Origin: Antitrichia curtipendula
Taxonomy: Eukaryota; Streptophyta; Bryopsida; Hypnales; Leucodontaceae
Assembly: GCA_951230915.1 (NCBI GenBank)
Contig: OX579635.1
Location: forward strand, 33,418,001 to 33,482,000
Direction of reading: 5' to 3'
Length of the DNA stretch: 64,000 bases
The notes under the pieces were generated by a model. It saw nothing but the letters and a program-made list of their open reading frames with translations. It made no database searches and was not told the DNA's origin. Below are positions 3,700-48,935 of the stretch, one piece after another (position 1 is the stretch's first letter; the number at the start of each line of letters is the position of its first letter). The position numbers and the translations under genes were made by a program.

Positions 3700-4416
3700 A
3701 TGCTAGCCATGCCTTACAATACTACCCCATGTCTTTATTCAATTACAAACATAAAGCCAGGGGCCGAGGTTACCACAGAACAACTGAAGCAATGTCGAGA
3801 TTTGTTTAGTAGTTCATACGGAGTTTGGAGTTCACAAGGCCATCATCCTCAGAAGCCTGTGACAGCAAGCACGCGGAGGCTGAAGCTCGACTACTTGTTT
3901 GACCCCAAGACTTGTGGCCTTGTGGTTGCCAAAGACTCCGAAGAAGGATGTTTATCTGGCCAAGCCTTGTATGTGAAGTATCCCTATTCGATAGACAAGG
4001 AGGTCATCTGGATCACGCAGCTTGTAGTGCGAGAAGATCACAGGCACAAGGGTGTGGCCACAGACATGATTCGCAAATGCTTGATGGACTACCGAGACGA
4101 CGTGTGGGCATGCGGCTTGGTCTCCTGTCACCCTTATGCTGTGAAAGCTCTGGAAACAGCGGCCAAGAGCAGGTGCAACCGAAGTTTGAGTGCACAGCAT
4201 GCCCAAGGGTTGATTCAACGCAGTGGCATTCCGTATGTGCAAAACTGCCAACCTTGCATAAGCACCACCAAATGTGCCATCCAAACGCATTTTCATGTGG
4301 ATCATGGGGTAGTTGACAGGGTCGCTGCCGACTTGGAAGATTGGCAATTAGGAAGCCTGGAGCCTGGAGAAGAATACTTCGCTTTCACGTACAACCTACA
4401 GGAGCGGCAGTCTTGA
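3700..4416 (+). CDS. GNAT-family N-acetyltransferase, intronless
   Basis: A 238-residue uninterrupted ORF. GNAT enzymes transfer an acetyl group from acetyl-CoA to an amine; the substrate here is unknown. The core is visible: a beta4-like strand W-I-T-Q-L-V-V (104-110), then the acetyl-CoA pyrophosphate-binding signature R-H-K-G-V-A at 115-120 and the following helix. A C-terminal block has F-H-V-D-H (198-202) and W-x-L-G-x-L-x-x-G-x-E (about 215-225), an arrangement I associate with GNAT proteins annotated mainly in fungi. There is no signal peptide or membrane segment, so a cytosolic or nuclear protein is likely. The ATG at 3700 is followed by a second in-frame ATG at codon 4 (3709) that could be the real start. 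It is intronless while its neighbours have 5, 6 and 13 coding exons. The stop lies inside a tandem duplication rich in TTTAGGG. Confidence 0.8.
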   Translation: MLAMPYNTTPCLYSITNIKPGAEVTTEQLKQCRDLFSSSYGVWSSQGHHPQKPVTASTRRLKLDYLFDPKTCGLVVAKDSEEGCLSGQALYVKYPYSIDKEVIWITQLVVREDHRHKGVATDMIRKCLMDYRDDVWACGLVSCHPYAVKALETAAKSRCNRSLSAQHAQGLIQRSGIPYVQNCQPCISTTKCAIQTHFHVDHGVVDRVAADLEDWQLGSLEPGEEYFAFTYNLQERQS

Positions 4417-14369: not shown

Positions 14370-16479
14370 TCAAGGACTTCTGCTCCTGCTCCGACGGCGA
14401 TCCCGGGCAGCTATCGGGCTTCTGCAAGTCCATTCAATTAAATATTGAGTTAGCCACCCAAGTTCAATTGCATGCACCAACACAAATGACAACTTCCAAG
14501 ATTGACTGTATATAAAAATGTCACAAAGATTCAACATACCCATTCGCAACTGGCGATCCACGTCGGTCACGTCTTGGTGGTGGTGATCGACTAGGGCTTC
14601 TGCCGCGGCGAACCACAGGCGAGATACTTCTCTGGCGCGGCGAAGATTTGCTCCTTCCTCGAGGACTTCCCCGAGGAGGTGGGCTGGACAGCAAAAAGAT
14701 CACAAAATGACAAGCTATCAATTGATATGCCCAGCTTACATGAACGCAAATGTACAAACAACTAAGAAATAGGGAACGCTATCCGAAGCATAATCTGTTG
14801 TTCCTAAGGGAGTAATAATGTGTAAAGAGATGATTGAACCATCAATTTGCTCATATTTTACTGGGAAAGACGGCAAATGGAACGTACCTGCGAGCACCAT
14901 AGCCATAGCTTGGGCTGCGACGATATCGTGGGCTGGCAGAGGAATGGCCCCCATTTTTCACCGTCAGATACCAAGACCGAGGAGACCGTGCGAAAAATGA
15001 AAGAGAACCAAAAATAAAATATTCATAAAATCCATAGTAACCCCTGAACGACCGTGATTTCATGGATTTTAAAAGATCTACGTACTTGATCATACTGTGA
15101 AGGAAATAATTCAGAGGGAGCGGAATTATAGATCACCAGTCACTGAAGAACATTGCAAGCGCATATCAAAAGAATATAAGGAAGAAACGAAAAAATGTCC
15201 CTACATGACGCACTCAAAAGAAGAAAAAAAACAAGGTCCAATTTGGGCCTCTTGGTTCTCCAGAGTGGGTTGAGATGAGAAGGAGAGTGACGGTACCTTC
15301 GGGCTCCGTAGCTTGGGCTGCGACGGTATCTTGGGCTAGCACGAGGGCTCTTACCACGGCCGCCAGTGCCCAATCCTCCAGCTCCAATACGAAGGCGGCA
15401 TTCTCGTGCAAAATGACCAGGCTCTCCACATTCGTAGCACTTCATGTCATCCCCTCCGCGACCACGAGGCCCACCGCCTCCGCCTGAGCTGCGAGAGAGC
15501 TCAACTCGCCAACCATTCTTACCTGCATGTCGAAAACCACATGAAAAGCAATTTTCCACTTCAATCGCTGAATAAATTCTTTAAGGTGTGCAAGAGCAGC
15601 CTTAATGTTCTGTGACCCCTTACAATAGCTACAGAACCACTCACTACGGGCTTACCATCCACAACCCGAACTGCATCTCGAGCATCTCGTATGTCATCGA
15701 ACTCCACAAAAGCAAACCCCGCCGGTTTCCGGGCGACCCAGACACTGTGTCACCAGATACATACAACAATAGCATCAAAACCATGATGAGGCACATACCA
15801 TTCAAGTCACGTATGGCATCATCTGCATCTCTTCGATCTTCAAATTCGATAAAAGCAAAGCCCGGCGGTTTGCGGCCCACCCATACACTGAAATTCATGG
15901 GTCAGACAGCAGAACGACTTTCAGCAGCATACCTTCAAAATGAAAAATCAACATCCCTCCCTGCATGTGCTTCCCCAAGTGCGCCCGCAATACATCCTAA
16001 ATCCCACTCAACATAAAACTCCTCTACGACTAAAATACACTAACAAAATTCGCAGATCCTCCTTGATAACGGCGTTCGTTCACATAATCCAAATCTACAA
16101 CGCCTATCATTAAAATTCACTCCTACAGCCAAAAAAATTCACCACGCATCAACATCGCTCAAAACCTCAAAAATCTAAAAACTCCAAAAATCATCCAACC
16201 AAACAAAACCATTAAGCGAACAAGAAAAATCAAAATCACCAATGAATCTCAAAAAATACGCGAAGAAAAAATAGGTGGAACATTCATAAACGAAAAAAAG
16301 TGACCGAAACCCTCATCCAACAAACCCTCGTCTCCATCCCCAAAACGAAGTGACTCATTCCGGAGGCGCAAATAGAAGTGGAAAACGGACCTGCGAAGCA
16401 CGCCGTAGACACGGAACTCATCCTCAAGCTCGCGCTCGGTGGCGCGCGGGTCCAAGTTGCCGACGTAAACACGCGACAT
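14370..16479 (-). CDS. RSZ-type SR splicing factor (RRM + zinc knuckle + RS domain)
   Basis: SR protein of the plant RSZ class (orthologous group of SRSF7/9G8), a nuclear regulator of splice-site choice. Coding exons in transcript order: 1, 16479-16391; 2a, 15887-15799 or 2b, 15744-15656; 3, 15522-15297; 4, 14932-14888; 5, 14683-14540; 6, 14421-14370. With one exon 2 the frame closes at 214 residues. RNP2 (V-Y-V-G-N-L, 4-9) is in exon 1. RNP1 (G-F-A-F-I-E-F-E in 2a, G-F-A-F-V-E-F-D in 2b, 39-46) is in exon 2. Exon 3 has a Gly/Arg linker and a CCHC knuckle, [14 protein letters not shown] (88-101). Exons 3-6 encode the RS domain, ending R-S-R-S-R-S-P. An in-frame upstream ATG exists, but MSRVYVGNL is the family start. 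Oddities: exon 2 is duplicated, and exon 4 looks copied from the end of exon 3. A telobox lies upstream. Confidence 0.93.
14888..14932 (-). other. RSZ exon 4, 45-nt in-frame duplicate of the exon 3 tail
   Basis: Encodes [14 protein letters not shown], nearly the same as the end of exon 3 ([12 protein letters not shown]). The donor context is also shared (GTACS). Its length is a multiple of three and both ends have the same phase, so it can be included or skipped without a frameshift. Confidence 0.8.
15656..15744 (-). other. RSZ alternative exon 2b (89 nt)
   Basis: Flanked by GACACAG acceptor and GTAAGC donor, with the same phase and length as exon 2a. It encodes [16 protein letters not shown] and then [12 protein letters not shown]. 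The gap to exon 2a is 15745-15798 (54 nt), shorter than usual plant introns. The reading frame is intact and RNP1 aromatics are kept, so it does not look like a decayed copy. Confidence 0.88.
15799..15887 (-). other. RSZ alternative exon 2a (89 nt)
   Basis: Flanked by TTTCAG acceptor and GTATGT donor. It completes the Ser codon begun by exon 1 and ends one base into a Gly codon. It encodes [16 protein letters not shown] and then [12 protein letters not shown]. It shares 20 of 30 encoded residues, exact length and phase with exon 2b. Confidence 0.88.
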
Positions 16480-16777: not shown

Positions 16778-17522
16778 TTAACCCCTAAATGACGGACCTA
16801 TAACCACTGATTTTAGGCCTCAGTGCCTATCACTCAATTTGCTGCCATTTTGCAACTAGACATGTATGAAAAAAATTTAATTTATTTTTCAGAGATGAAA
16901 TTACATGTTTTCTTTACTTCACAAAAAATTTAGATTTTTTTGTGGAAAATTGATTTTTTTGAGAATTTTTGAAGAAAAAGAGAAGAAAAATCACATCAAA
17001 TAGAAAATTGTTTCAAAAAAACTGAAAATTTCACCGTGTGTGTATATTACAATGAAAAACATCATGGTGTAAACTCAATTTCCGTCTCATTCTATAATTA
17101 GAAAATAATAGACATTGAAAATACACCCAAAGTTCAAATTGCAATAAAATGTGCAATATTAAGAATTTTTTCAAAATTCAAATTAGAGAAGAAATTAGAT
17201 TAGATGACCTTCATTTTGTTAGTTGGGCTCACACTCAAAAAATATCATTTTTGTGGAGAAATTTCAGACTTAGAGCAAGGAACAACAACTTCCCAAAATA
17301 CACTAAAATAGCATATTTTGTGATCCGTTTTTTTTAATAACTTCTCATTTATGTGAAGATAGACACTTGCATGACTACAAATTCAACTATACACTCTTTG
17401 TAATCCACCATGAAGGGTGAACAAAAATGAAATGGATGAAAAAAAAGTTTCCAAGCAATGTACAGATGACTGTACAATCATCCAAACCCCAAAAATTGGC
17501 GTCCTTGGCGTTCCAGGGTTAA
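16778..17522. mobile_element. TTAA-flanked element A (~0.74 kb)
   Basis: Starts TTAA-CCCCTAAATGACGG at 16778 (a second TTAA lies at 16771). Ends CGTCCTTGGCGTTCCAGGG-TTAA at 17519-17522. The terminal sequences are only loosely inverted (GGAC/GTCC blocks). The interior is AT-rich and non-coding, including a 62-codon ORF without a known domain. It begins about 300 bp upstream of the RSZ start codon. Confidence 0.45.
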
Positions 17523-17965
17523 CCCTTAAAACAACGGGCTCATAACCGTGGAAATCATCTGTTTTGTCACCGTGTGAATTGTTGGATTAAAATAATGCAA
17601 AAGCACTCATCGGAAGTCAAACTACTGTAGATGATCTTCCCTTTTCACACAAAATTTGGAGGATGAGTAGTTGCACTTTTGTCCTTTACATGAGATTCTT
17701 TGTCATTCATCAGCCAGAAAACGTCCTCGGCGACGTTTATGGATTAAGCGTTGAGGCGGATGTTCTATGGTTGATGAATGACAAGAGAATCTCATGTGTA
17801 GGACAAAAGTGCAACTACTCATCCTCCAAATTTTGTGTGAAAAGGAAAGATCATCTACAGTAGTTTAACTTCCGATCAATGCTTTTGCATTATTTTAATT
17901 CAACAATTCACACGGTGTCAAAACAGGTGATTACCACAATTATGAGCCCGTCATTGAAGGGTTAA
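17519..17965. mobile_element. TTAA-flanked foldback element B (447 bp)
   Basis: Bounded by TTAA at 17519-17522 and 17962-17965. The arms (about 17523-17725 and 17755-17961) are inverted copies with roughly 90% identity by eye, leaving a loop of about 30-40 bp. Landmarks in both arms: GGGCTCATAA, CACCGTGTGAATTGTTG, AATGCAAAAGCA, TAAACTACTGTAGATGATC-like and CACAAAATTTGGAGGATGAG. No ORF covers it. It is the best-preserved member of the family also seen at 5001-5174 and 12292-12559. Confidence 0.88.
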
Positions 17966-18183
17966 GCGCTCCGATTTCCATTTTTTGGACAATGAACAGA
18001 GGGCTTGCAGGCGCTATTTCGTCCAACCAACTTTTCATTCATCCAATGTAACACTTGAATCTTGAAAAGGCAACCTTCCTTAATGACCAATTTCATGAAA
18101 TTTTGATAAATGATATTTTTGAACAAAGATATAAGCAAAAATGTACAAAATTTCAAAAAAGGATTGAGGCGTGAAGGGGTTAA
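17962..18183. mobile_element. TTAA-bounded segment C (222 bp)
   Basis: Shares the TTAA at 17962-17965 with element B and ends AGGGG-TTAA at 18180-18183. Its two ends are not clearly inverted. It may be a separate element or old target sequence between insertions. Confidence 0.3.
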
Positions 18184-43403: not shown

Positions 43404-46400
43404 TCATCTGCTTTCTGGAAACTTTGTTTGGTATGCGACCGCACTCTGCAAAGATACAATCTAAATTAGAGCCCATGATAAAATTAAGTCAGAGGCAGTT
43501 AACAGACTCTGTTGTGTGAAAAAGTATCCATAAGCAAACTCACCATGTAAGTGGCTGTGATCATTTTCCCAGCAAACCATCGCCCATGTAAAGCCCGTTG
43601 AGCAGCCATGGCAGCAGAGATCGAATCAAAGCAGAGATAGACATGACCAGCGCTGTTTCTGCACAATAAAAATAAGGAAGTTAGATACGGCAACTACTCC
43701 AAATTCCATGTATAATACTGATCCAAAATCCATGTATGATCCTATTAAGGTAACTAACATCTCAGTCGAGAGTATCAACACTCCAAAACGGAATAAAACA
43801 TCGCAACTATTTATGATCTTAACATTCTTCACAAGAAAAATTGTAATACCAAACTCTCAGCTCGAGATAACTTAAACTGGAATACAGACCCTCAATAAAT
43901 AGTCTTCTGTATTGAGGGTTTGTAATGCAGTGAGTAATAATGAATACATGAACAGTAGAATATGCTCAAAATTCTTAGTATCCATGAAATATGACAGAGA
44001 ACAGTAGAGAAAAAACTTGTAGATTCCAGCGGACTTACTTGTCAACGAAGATATGCTTTACCGCACCAAACTTCGAGCATTCCTCTTGCACATCCTCCTT
44101 GATATCGAGGTCAAAGTCCTGATCAGACTGCCCAATTTGTGTCCCACCAAAAAATGGAACTATTAGCATAATCGTAGAGGACCTACAAATCATCCACTTA
44201 ACATACACTCTTCAAGAACAGAAAGTATTATAATCCAGATGTCATGTCTAAAAACGGAACAACTTCGAAAAGTTTACAAGCTAAACAAATTGGACCACAG
44301 AAGACAGTTAACATGAAAGGGAAGAACTAACCTCGCTCGTAGGGTCAAACATATTTTTTAGGAGTAAATATTCACTAGGCTGCCCAATTGCGTCAACTGC
44401 ACCAGCTACAGGAGGAACCACAAGGCCAGGAGATCCAAGAGCCGCAGCCCCCAATCCGGTAGTTGCACCCGCTACAAGCATTGGATTCTGGACAAAAAAT
44501 GGCGGCCTTACTAAGGGAGTAACAGCAGGGGGTACAGCTGTTCCAAGAAGGCCTAGTGCTGGGGCTGAGGTAGCAGGCAAAGGAGCAGGGGCATTGCTGA
44601 CGTGCACAAAAGTCTCAATGTTAGTGAAAAGTGTTTGAATTTCAATACAAAAAAACAAATAACCAGGAACAACAGTCAAGTGACCAGGATGTTCAACACC
44701 TTGGGTCATTAGCAAATCAGCTTTGACGATACAGTAAGAGGCCAGTAAGAATACCTTGTTCCACTTCCACTCCGATCCAGTTTCTGCATGAGGAGGGCTC
44801 TCGAACGGGCATTCAAAGACTGCGACCAACATTGCACGCAAAAAACGATTATTAGTGAGATGGTTTCCACAATCATAGATGTTGGCTATTGCAAGTCACT
44901 AACTAAGATAATATAAAGCACGAAGTCCAAGTTCAGAATCAAGTACTCACCAGGCCTCCGCCTTCATCATCGTCAAGTTCCCCAGGATGAACGCCCATGT
45001 CTTCCATGCCAATTTGGTCAGAGACTGCAGACACCTGAAAGGAAAATAAATTGAACAGTCAAATACGATATGATCATTGAACCGTCAAGAAACAGCATAT
45101 TCCAAACTATCCGTTTGTCCAGCACAGAGAAAGCAAAAATCAAATCGTTCCCCGGGAAGTAGATTGAACCTTTATTGGACGTCCTGCAAGCTCCAGCCCA
45201 TTTAGACTTTGTTGAGCAGCACGGGCATCTTCCAGTCTAGCATACTGCAATAAGTTTCAACAAGCATATACTGAGTGATACGAAGTACCTTATTGTTTCA
45301 TACGATTCAATGAACTACACCAAAAAGAAACCTAAACAAATGAAACCCAGTCCTCAAAAACATACCCTGGCCCAGCGTGAGGAATCGCAGAATTACATAC
45401 TACTGCGATAACTGGTATGCAATAGAACACGTGACAAAAAATTCTTACCTGCACGAACCCAAAACCTTTGCTTTGCCCGGTTTCGAGATCAGAAGGTAGC
45501 TGCACTAGCTCAACGGGTCCAAAAGGCTCAAAAACCTGTTACAAATGACATAGAATCCATGTACAGTAAAAAGATCAGAAATTAAATACCACCATAGACG
45601 TCACATATGATAACCATTTTTTTTAAGTGACCAACTCTCTGAACTTAATCAAACAGGAAATATTCATGTGTGGATGTCCACGTCCAGAACCTTCGAAAAT
45701 AAAGTAATAAAAGTAATCCAAGCGCAATGAACACGCAATCACTGGCATCAACCTTGCAAACAGCACCCACTGACCTAGACACAAGGAGCCCACACCAGCA
45801 ATGCAGGAGCAAGTGATTGAAAACATGTTACCTGACGTAGCTGGTCCTCTGTCATGTTGAAATGAAGATTCCCAACATAAAGACGGCGGGCACCTCCTGA
45901 GTATGGACCAATGAAGCCACCAGCAACTCCTGGAACCGCAGTTGTGGACTGTACGAGATTCTTCTCAGCTTCAGAAGGTTTTACCATGACCGGTTGATTC
46001 AATAGCAGCTGGCCTGACAAAGCTATAGCCATCGGGACTGACATGGCATCATAGAACTCAATATACCTGAAATAGGCATCACCATGCGGTAAGTTCGGCA
46101 ATAATGATTCATCGACCATCTTCTAGAGATATAACATCTCATGGAGAAATATGACATTAATGAAAGGTTGCAGAATGAAAACCAGTGACGCAAAAAGTTA
46201 AGAGAACATCTTACCCAACTCCTTTGGAACGCCTCGAATTCCGGTCCATGATTAGCCGGACATCCCGCACCTAACAAACATGAGCTATTAGTAAAAACCA
46301 TAGCAGATTCTGTTACACTGGAAAGTGAAAAGGAGTACCAGTAGAAAAGGATCCAAACCATGGGATTTTGACAGTACACTGACATCCTCATGGATCACAA

Positions 46401-48935
46401 CCCCTCACACCTGAGGAGGGGCCCCAAAGAAGCTACTTACGCAAGTAAATCAGTTTAGCGCTCACCACAAGCTCCGGTCCAGAATCACAAAGAAGGCCAC
46501 AAGTCTGACCTCATTGCAAGCAAACTCAGGTATGTGCACTGCAAAGAAGCAGAGGGTTTGATTCATACTCATTGTGTAATCAATGAACTCTCTGTGTTCC
46601 ACAGAAGATTACAGAGTAAGAAAGCAACAGCATCCTAGTGAACCTTCGACCATTTTCTCCATACAAACCCAGATCAGAGTTTGTGACTTCGGGTATGAAA
46701 TGAGACATCAATTGCTAAACAGCCACGCACTAGCAAAGACACCACGAGTACCATCACTATACGAGTAGCTGATGACCTTTGAGAGAGTGCCTTTGTTTTA
46801 CCCTCGCAGCGCTTTACAAAACTAAAGTTCCGTAGCTCTACTCTTACAAAAGGACAAAAAGACCGACTAGTATGACAAAGGTCAGGCCTCACCTTTCCAG
46901 CCCGAGAGAAAAAATCGTAAACATCGCGCTCATCCGCTTTCAAAGAAATCTGCATCATAAACACAATGAAATCCCAATTAGTTCAATATCATGGAAATAG
47001 GTGAGTATCACTAAATTCATAATTGACTCCACATGGATGTACAGCCCGTCTACGAATGAAACTTTCGGACACTATTTGAAGTATTCGCCAATTGCAGCAA
47101 CTGCTGGAACCCAAGGGAAGCCAGGAGAATTATAATGTAACAACTCGGGCCAGCATGAGGGGCCAAGTTTCGCTTCCACGTAACTGCCAAGTTAGCACCT
47201 TTAGGTAGCAATAAAGGTTCCTGTAAGCTCTCAAGCAGTCACAACAGGAAGTGGGAGCTTACACTGCCTGAAGCAGAAATAAATTTATTTGACCAATCGA
47301 ACAAACCTGCATGACCAGATCCCCCTCGGTCTCATTGCTGTACCCCTAAAAAATAATCTCCTGGGTGCAAGGACTCCTTAAGTTCAACTCAATGTGACCA
47401 CTGGCGCAAATTATTCCCAGGGTCACAAAGATCGACTCCTGCATTTACATGTGGGGATAATCCACTACCATCAGTTTCAGGGTAACCTGCTGGCCTTAAA
47501 CAGAAGAAACGAGGACCTACATCTTTGAACATTTAAGACTTCACATTGTCCCATTGCATCTCAGGGTACTAACTTCGGGGCTCGTTTATCGAAGGTACAA
47601 AGAAGAAGACCATTACACTTTGAGTAATTCACCATTGTCACTGCCACACGTCTAAGCATGAAGCAGGCCGCTCATTCACACAGAAATTTACTCACAAGAA
47701 GAGGTGAGTGACCGACATATCGATGTGGACATAGCAACCACTAACTGTGATAACGGTTGAAAATAACTCGATTACAGCCTGTAACTCTCATATACTCGAC
47801 ATTTTGGTGATTGAATGAAGCTCAACAACTCAGCTACTCTTAATTAAGGGAAGTGCAGAGCGGTACAAATCAAAATTAGGGGAAAAAGGTAGTCGCCATT
47901 CACCTGATACGCAAAAACTGTCCTCTGATCTCTTTCAGGATCAGCCTCAGGTTCATTCGCCACCTGCTCCACCTTACGCTCCTTGAGCTCTCGAGACCGT
48001 CTCCTGTGAAGTCCACAAACCGAAAACTACTGTTAGAAAAACTAGCTCATACAGACGTTTAGGGCAAAGAATCATGTACATTGCCAAGTCCGCAACACTC
48101 AAGCGTCTTTAAACAAACGAGAGAAGCCAAAATTGCTGAGGCATTCGTTCAAAACTAAAAACTATTGCCAGAAAGGCTAGGTGATACATTTCAAGAGCTC
48201 ATAATACGTATGCAATAAATCATGGCTCTTCCATTCCATTCCAAGGTCCAGATAATCTTCATAAACGAGCTACAAGTGCCAAAAACAATACCGGTGCTCT
48301 CGTTCGCGCTCTTTCTCCCGTTCTCTTTCTCTCTCTCGTTCCTTCTCCCTCTCCTTTTCCCTCTCCCGCTCCTTCTCGCGCTCCCGCTCGCGGTCTTTAT
48401 CCCTGCTGCGATGCCGATCCCGCGACCTGTCCCTCTCCTTTTCCTTTTCCTTATCTCGCTCGCGCTCCTTCTCCCGCGACCGCGGCTTCTCGCTGCTCTT
48501 CTTCACACTCCCTTCCCTCCCTTCCCGCTGTCTGGACGCCTCCTTCTCCACCTCCCCTCCTTTCTCTCTCCCCTTGTCTGACCTGCTGCTCCTACTTCCC
48601 CGCTCCTTCTCCTTCTCCTGGCCCCTGTCCTCACCGTGATCCCCCCGCACACTCCTGGAAGAACGATCGCGCTCTTTCTCCCCGCCGCCCCGCTCCTTCT
48701 CCCTCTCATCGTCCTCCGCGCGCGTGCGCTTGGTGCGGTGGTCGTGGACGTCGCTGGTGTCGCCGCTGCGGCGCTTGTAACTGGAGTTGCGTCGGCTGTC
48801 GCGATCGTTCCCGTTGTGGTTGTTGTTCACCTCGCTTGTTACATGGCTGCTATTGGTGTTGTTGTTGGCGGCTTTCGTAGCGGTGTCGTTCGCCTCCGTC
48901 ATCTTCTCCAGATACTCGTACTCGTCGAACTCCAT
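43404..48935 (-). CDS. RBM39/CAPER-like (CC1-like) splicing factor
   Basis: Thirteen coding exons: 48935-48292, 48003-47904, 46949-46893, 46270-46215, 46066-45832, 45535-45449, 45244-45170, 45034-44951, 44819-44755, 44596-44332, 44127-44039, 43658-43544 and 43445-43404. All are GT-AG, phases close, and 637 residues result. The family is a nuclear U2AF65-related factor that helps recruit U2 snRNP at 3' splice sites. Exon 1 encodes a plant-type start (M-E-F-D-E-Y-E-Y-L-E-K) and a long Arg/Glu/Asp/Lys-repeat RS-like region to about residue 215. RRM1 is about 242-317 (V-F-A-Y-Q...G-Y-I-E-F). RRM2 is about 346-421 (R-L-Y-V-G-N-L and G-F-G-F-V-Q-Y). A conserved S-R-A-L-L-M-Q-K-L-D-R linker and an Ala/Pro/Gly-rich stretch follow. 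The C-terminal UHM-type RRM is about 547-624 (N-M-F-D-P...E-D-V-Q-E-E-C, with R-W-F loop), and the protein ends K-F-P-E-S-R. The UHM R-x-F motif needed for ligand binding is intact. Confidence 0.95.

Follow-up and report, generated by a model that had tools for sequence, protein, structure and literature searches.

The window, by which we mean the whole 64,000-nucleotide (64-kb) stretch analysed here, carries on its minus strand a gene for an SR protein of the RSZ type, which runs from position 16479 down to 14370 and has six coding exons in its mRNA. Exon 1 (16391..16479) starts with the ATG codon and encodes the N-terminal part of the RRM. The next exon is present in two versions, exon 2a (15799..15887), which is of type A as defined below, and exon 2b (15656..15744), which is of a diverged type B. 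Both are 89 nt long, and they are separated by an intron of 54 nt (15745..15798). Exon 3 (15297..15522) encodes the end of the RRM, the glycine-rich stretch, the zinc knuckle and the start of the RS region, and is followed by a 45-nt, in-frame exon 4 (14888..14932) that resembles the end of exon 3, by exon 5 (14540..14683), encoding RS region, and by exon 6 (14370..14421) with the stop codon, all on the minus strand.

Elsewhere in the window there is a second gene of the splicing-factor type (~44000-48935, minus strand), with an N-terminal part rich in arginine, glutamate and aspartate, followed by RRM-like exons and with an RRM match at 45449-45544; it resembles RBM39/CAPER. An open reading frame on the plus strand (3700-4416, 238 residues) matched the GNAT acetyltransferases (PF00583, E 2.7e-8). 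A large imperfect inverted repeat (17515-17970), with 185-nt arms that are 89% complementary and 86 nt apart, is located some 1 kb upstream of where RSZ translation starts and may represent a small non-autonomous transposon. The 64-kb window gave no matches in scans for Rfam families and tRNAs.

Use of either 2a or 2b results in a protein of 214 residues, and the two forms differ at 10 of these. The Pfam domains RRM_1 and zf-CCHC were found above the cut-offs in both forms, and the glycine-rich and RS stretches are directly visible in the translated protein. The protein therefore shows all features of the RSZ subfamily, i.e., one RRM, a glycine-rich stretch, one CCHC zinc knuckle, and an RS region. 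Among the matches listed, the nearest named proteins were RSZ21 and RSZ23. Together with the Pfam matches to the RRM and the zinc knuckle, this bears out an earlier interpretation made without database searches (the sequence-only reading), which had assigned the gene to the RSZ group of SR splicing factors. The closest proteins among the matches listed were P0001 from Physcomitrium patens, with a 93% match across the whole 2a form, and the environmental record P0002, also with 93%. A stretch matching exon 4 occurs in P0001, whereas P0002 and P0003 lack it, and exon 4 looks like an in-frame cassette exon. Its similarity to the end of exon 3 (14903-14938 versus 15306-15341; 36 nt, 89%), with both stretches encoding the same 11 residues, constitutes a second duplication within the gene.

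The part of the RRM that is encoded by exon 2a or 2b comprises the RNP1 strand and the second helix. The RNP1 loop reads GRKPPG in 2a and ARKPAG in 2b, and helix 2 is different as well. The RRM structures of SRSF3 and SRSF7 (2i2y, 2hvz, and 9asq) match the moss RRM in sequence over residues 3-73 or more, and the β2 tryptophan and both RNP1 phenylalanines of these mammalian proteins align with it. Since the loop and the second helix vary between 2a and 2b, while the tryptophan and the two phenylalanines are identical in both, RNA binding would be expected to be tuned rather than lost between the two forms.

The duplication itself, described in the sequence-only reading as two copies of an RNP1 exon, proved correct base for base with regard to coordinates, length of 89 nt, phase, GT-AG sites, open frames, and identity at 20 of the 30 residues. 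Each copy is preceded by AG and followed by GT, both have the same phase, and both reading frames are open. At the nucleotide level, 62 of the 89 bases are identical (binomial chance ~6e-17), and a repeat finder independently picked up the pair (95 nt, 72%). In a study on predicting mutually exclusive exons, the criteria are that exons are adjacent, have a similar length, the same frame, matching splice sites, and a similar sequence (PMC3923563), and 2a and 2b agree with these criteria in position, length, frame, splice sites, and similarity.

Because 89 is not a multiple of three, including both exons or neither of them breaks the reading frame. Joining 2a to 2b leads to a TGA codon within exon 3 (15442..15444, minus strand; nt 346-348 of the coding sequence), and joining exon 1 directly to exon 3 gives AGG-TAA, with the TAA at 15519..15521 (minus strand), so both unproductive outcomes that had been foreseen for this gene are indeed encoded. 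The TGA is located 334 nt and the TAA 411 nt before the last exon junction, and in both cases three junctions lie downstream. Early stops upstream of exon junctions are characteristic of SR genes with unproductive splicing, and the frame-broken transcripts should be subject to decay. A stop followed by three junctions is also what would be expected if 2b were mainly a poison exon, with 2a making the protein and the addition of 2b causing an early stop by which RSZ damps itself, as other SR genes do. Unproductive splicing is common among splicing-factor genes, also in plants (PMC4379411). We nevertheless consider this explanation unlikely, since conservation of the amino acids would be unnecessary in a poison exon, whereas the differences between 2a and 2b are mainly synonymous, and the 2b form keeps a full RRM.

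The pairwise comparison of 2a and 2b over 29 codons gave dN ~0.22, dS ~1.90, and dN/dS ~0.11, with the synonymous sites near saturation, which makes dS imprecise. The 27 nucleotide differences are distributed over the first, second and third codon positions as 8, 4, and 15, an excess of third-position differences (Fisher p 1e-4, on rounded counts), and this is the pattern of two exons that are both kept as coding by selection. Since the differences are mostly synonymous, 2b can hardly have decayed freely for most of its time, and it does not look like a decaying or a recent copy. These data also bear on another explanation, according to which 2b is a relic, i.e., a former alternative that is now unused in A. 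curtipendula and of which the frame and splice sites are still present. Since 2b retains its open frame, its two splice sites and its length of 89 nt, and most substitutions are synonymous, any loss of use must have been recent.

We searched the A. curtipendula genome (400.2 Mb, 303 contigs) with the protein, accepting matches with E values up to 1. This gave 61 matches, of which the top four were exons 3, 2b, 1, and 2a (E 6e-43 to 2e-6), and the fifth-best had an E value of 0.004. Two other RRM spots were examined as possible RSZ paralogues and were found not to be RSZ. No second RSZ gene was found in this search of the 400.2-Mb genome, and the assembly seems to contain no RSZ gene other than the one in the window, which would leave 2a and 2b as the only source of RRM variety among the RSZ proteins of this moss. 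Pattern searches of prokaryote and viral collections revealed no moss DNA, with no relatives among 35 pattern matches and two distant RRM loci among 72.

The two exons were compared with exon 2 of RSZ proteins from other plants, using the best 120 matches from each of three protein searches (of 1110, 1482, and 146 matches), together 246 different proteins, from a collection clustered at 90% identity. A type A exon 2 was found, by a strict pattern, in 9 of the 246 listed proteins and occurs in Physcomitrium, Marchantia, Calypogeia, and divergent Sphagnum genes. Type B (VEFDDLRDAQDAIRAMD and similar) was found in 11 of the 246 and occurs in Riccia, Sphagnum, three Diphasiastrum genes, and environmental records. 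Exon 2a of the window matches type A at 28 of 30 residues and type B at 22, and exon 2b matches type B at 24 of 30 residues and type A at 21. At the six positions that separate the two types, 2b has the B state at three and the A state at none, some of the B states being common in other plants as well, and it lacks the glycine that 2a and Physcomitrium have in common. In a tree of 28 selected exon 2 peptides (30 columns), 2b formed one group with Riccia, Sphagnum, and three Diphasiastrum rows (99/95), and 2a grouped with Physcomitrium (94/93). The type A rows were on the opposite side from 2b, intermixed with ferns and others, and 2b itself was a long branch (0.39). Constraining 2a and 2b to one clade was rejected with these 30 columns (p-AU 0.0065), as was a grouping of 2a, 2b, and Physcomitrium (p-AU 0.024) and one of 2b with four type A rows (p-AU 0.0048), all three groupings having been named after the tree had been seen. 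Exons 2a and 2b appear to be of separate ancestry, and the pair probably arose long before the species did. A recent duplication of 2a in the moss lineage, kept by chance, would fit with the adjacency and equal length of the copies, but it is disfavoured by the dS value and the tree tests, and it agrees poorly with the missing glycine and the B states of 2b. We consider it very improbable.

With respect to the use of the two exons, 2a is the version present in P0001, P0002, and P0003, and the truncated Ceratodon record P0218 has a 2a-like start. A moss 2b form was not seen among the 246 listed proteins, from clusters of 90% identity that could hide forms differing at 10 of 214 residues. That no such protein is listed would suit a poison exon, and that the nearest records (P0001, P0002, P0003, and partly P0218) carry 2a would suit a relic, as would the long branch of 2b and its greater distance from its type. 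The same points, 24 of 30 matches to type for 2b against 28 of 30 for 2a, the long branch, and the nearest records having 2a, count against a functional pair. In P0002, a single open frame on contigs no longer than 1,930 bases covers exons 1-2a-3-5-6, and in the environmental records P0153-P0156, a type B exon directly follows exon 1 before other sequence takes over. These open frames suggest that P0002 and P0153-P0156 derive from cDNA. In the Riccia, Sphagnum, and Diphasiastrum records, type B is an in-frame part of RSZ proteins, which argues against a poison exon. In view of its intact coding features, we regard a 2b relic as quite unlikely. P0218 is Ceratodon M758_UG145000, perhaps from the U sex chromosome, going by its name, and P0221 is Riccia R1sor_023464, in which type B is followed by a shifted frame; both fragmentary records may be processed pseudogenes.

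Riccia belongs to the class Marchantiopsida, as does Marchantia paleacea, and Calypogeia belongs to a different liverwort class. The RSZ proteins of M. paleacea and Riccia differ at 6 of the 30 exon 2 residues and at none of the other 70 of residues 1-100 (p 5e-4), and exon 2 of M. paleacea differs from that of Physcomitrium at 1 of 30 residues and from that of Calypogeia at 0 of 30. The simplest reading is that one exon pair is present in both and that gene annotation settled on one member in Marchantia and on the other in Riccia. P0221 is a second, fragmentary RSZ-like record of Riccia, also of type B, so the difference could also lie between paralogues. For M. polymorpha, one RSZ gene has been reported (PMC7105729). 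The M. polymorpha record P0159, named 'protein MpSR4', has 62 residues and ends with DDAIRALN-VFG-stop, an ending found only once among the 246 listed proteins. V-F-G-stop is the shifted-frame reading of an exon that begins with T-GTT-TGG-GTA-G, which gives SVWV in the right frame, and a retained GT intron after a type A exon would read N-G, unlike P0159. Judging from the protein record, P0159 would represent a type A exon that has been spliced to another copy of exon 2, read in a shifted frame, the counterpart of 2a-2b joining. Going by its ending, liverworts probably have the tandem exon pair, too. P0159 resembles exactly the product that a poison exon would give, and it suggests that double inclusion can occur in Marchantia and that exclusion may be leaky there. 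The strict mutual exclusivity that had been proposed for 2a and 2b is so far unsupported, as P0159 looks like an A-to-B joined transcript in Marchantia.

In Sphagnum and Diphasiastrum, the type A or A-like records and the type B records come from different genes, which by itself does not point to a tandem pair there. We see an even chance that the A/B pair predates the split between mosses and liverworts, perhaps even the diversification of land plants, and has since been kept as a coding switch of the RRM, whereby some lineages, such as Sphagnum and Diphasiastrum, may have swapped exon choice for separate A and B genes, and A. curtipendula keeps both in one gene. The A/B pair would then rank among the oldest pairs of mutually exclusive exons known from plants.

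The 54-nt gap between 2a and 2b is unusually short, as noted in the sequence-only reading. The other introns of the gene measure 118-503 nt, and seven that were measured in a further gene of the window, with borders set by eye, ~131-954 nt. Physcomitrella introns are reported to cluster around 180 bp (PMC1079823). The better of two branch-point-like adenines, by a simple YTNAY pattern only, is 24 nt away from the donor of 2a, with 30 nt remaining to the acceptor of 2b. With such a short gap and with this adenine so near to the 2a donor, splicing from the 2a donor should interfere with use of the 2b acceptor, so that 1-2a-3 or 1-2b-3 would be the remaining products, and 2a-2b joining, which a poison exon depends on, should be hard in A. 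curtipendula. Doubly included or skipped transcripts that leak through would be left to decay. Both spacing and decay have been described as enforcers of mutually exclusive clusters of two exons (PMC6071210). Competing RNA structure was considered as an enforcer and rejected, since the fold is ordinary (z -0.06; 44 of 100 shuffles fold as well) and the duplexes around the exons have ordinary energies (206-258 of 300 shuffles as good). A 14-nt inverted repeat (93%) connects the start of intron 1 (16372-16385) with the intron before exon 3 (15552-15565) and spans both exon 2 copies. Its perfect 11-nt core, picked after it had been seen, occurred in 8 of 1000 shuffles, and as a weak lead, the repeat could favour skipping of both exons, or it could be due to chance.

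Taken together, we consider it probable that 2a and 2b form a functional pair of mutually exclusive exons of considerable age, coupled to unproductive splicing, in what seems to be the only RSZ gene of A. curtipendula. The anatomy of the pair, its coding logic, the stop positions, the selection signature, and the seemingly separate ancestry of the exons are legible in the DNA itself; that the 54-nt gap hinders 2a-2b joining, that decay removes leaks, and that both exons are productively spliced in A. curtipendula is what we infer. Of the sequence-only interpretation, the assignment to RSZ, the coding logic by which exactly one copy is needed, and both unproductive outcomes hold, whereas strictness and steric exclusion have so far not gained support. 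Each exon would supply its own RNP1 strand and helix 2, giving two RSZ proteins that differ only there, and as frame-broken transcripts should decay, the choice of exon could also set the RSZ protein level. If this is true, the splicing of a splicing regulator can choose its own binding domain, beyond its amount. If kept across early land plants, such a pair in the RNA-binding domain of a general splicing regulator would offer a natural experiment on the joint tuning of RNA recognition and gene dose by exon choice, and Physcomitrium and Marchantia are easy to edit and have few RSZ genes.

To our knowledge, plants have few well-documented cases of mutually exclusive coding exons. In Arabidopsis, 99 exons have been predicted as candidates, none of the internal ones being already annotated as such in the available part of that study (PMC3923563). 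A clear plant case is FLM/MAF1 of Arabidopsis, which, like 2a/2b, has two neighbouring alternative coding exons in a regulator gene that give two protein forms, and for both of which ribosome-associated reads have been reported. FLM/MAF1 is a MADS-domain protein in which the I-domain is changed, whereas the moss pair lies within an RRM, and remnants of the second exon are reported, in the accessible text, only in the close relatives MAF2 and MAF3, whereas the moss pair seems far older (PMC3266260). In two-exon clusters, exons can be too close for mutual splicing, as may hold for 2a and 2b, and frame-breaking doubles can be removed by decay (PMC6071210), but the role of spacing is inferred in the moss, and the Marchantia record suggests double inclusion in that liverwort. 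SR genes with unproductive splicing share with the moss RSZ gene the early stops before downstream junctions, but the alternative exon of the moss is a complete in-frame replacement for its neighbour (PMC4379411). The RSZ genes of Physcomitrella patens belong to the same subfamily; two have been reported, compared with the one found in A. curtipendula, as have novel pp-RSZ23 isoforms and a locus with two overlapping RSZ gene models, and the main texts, as far as available, contain the term 'mutually exclusive' 0 times and mention no duplicated exons (PMC7105729, PMC5457400). In the literature covered, which includes part of the papers on SR splicing, we recognised no description of such a pair in RSZ genes. 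Mutually exclusive exons are of a known kind, and the moss RSZ pair is notable among them for its location in the RRM and its likely age.
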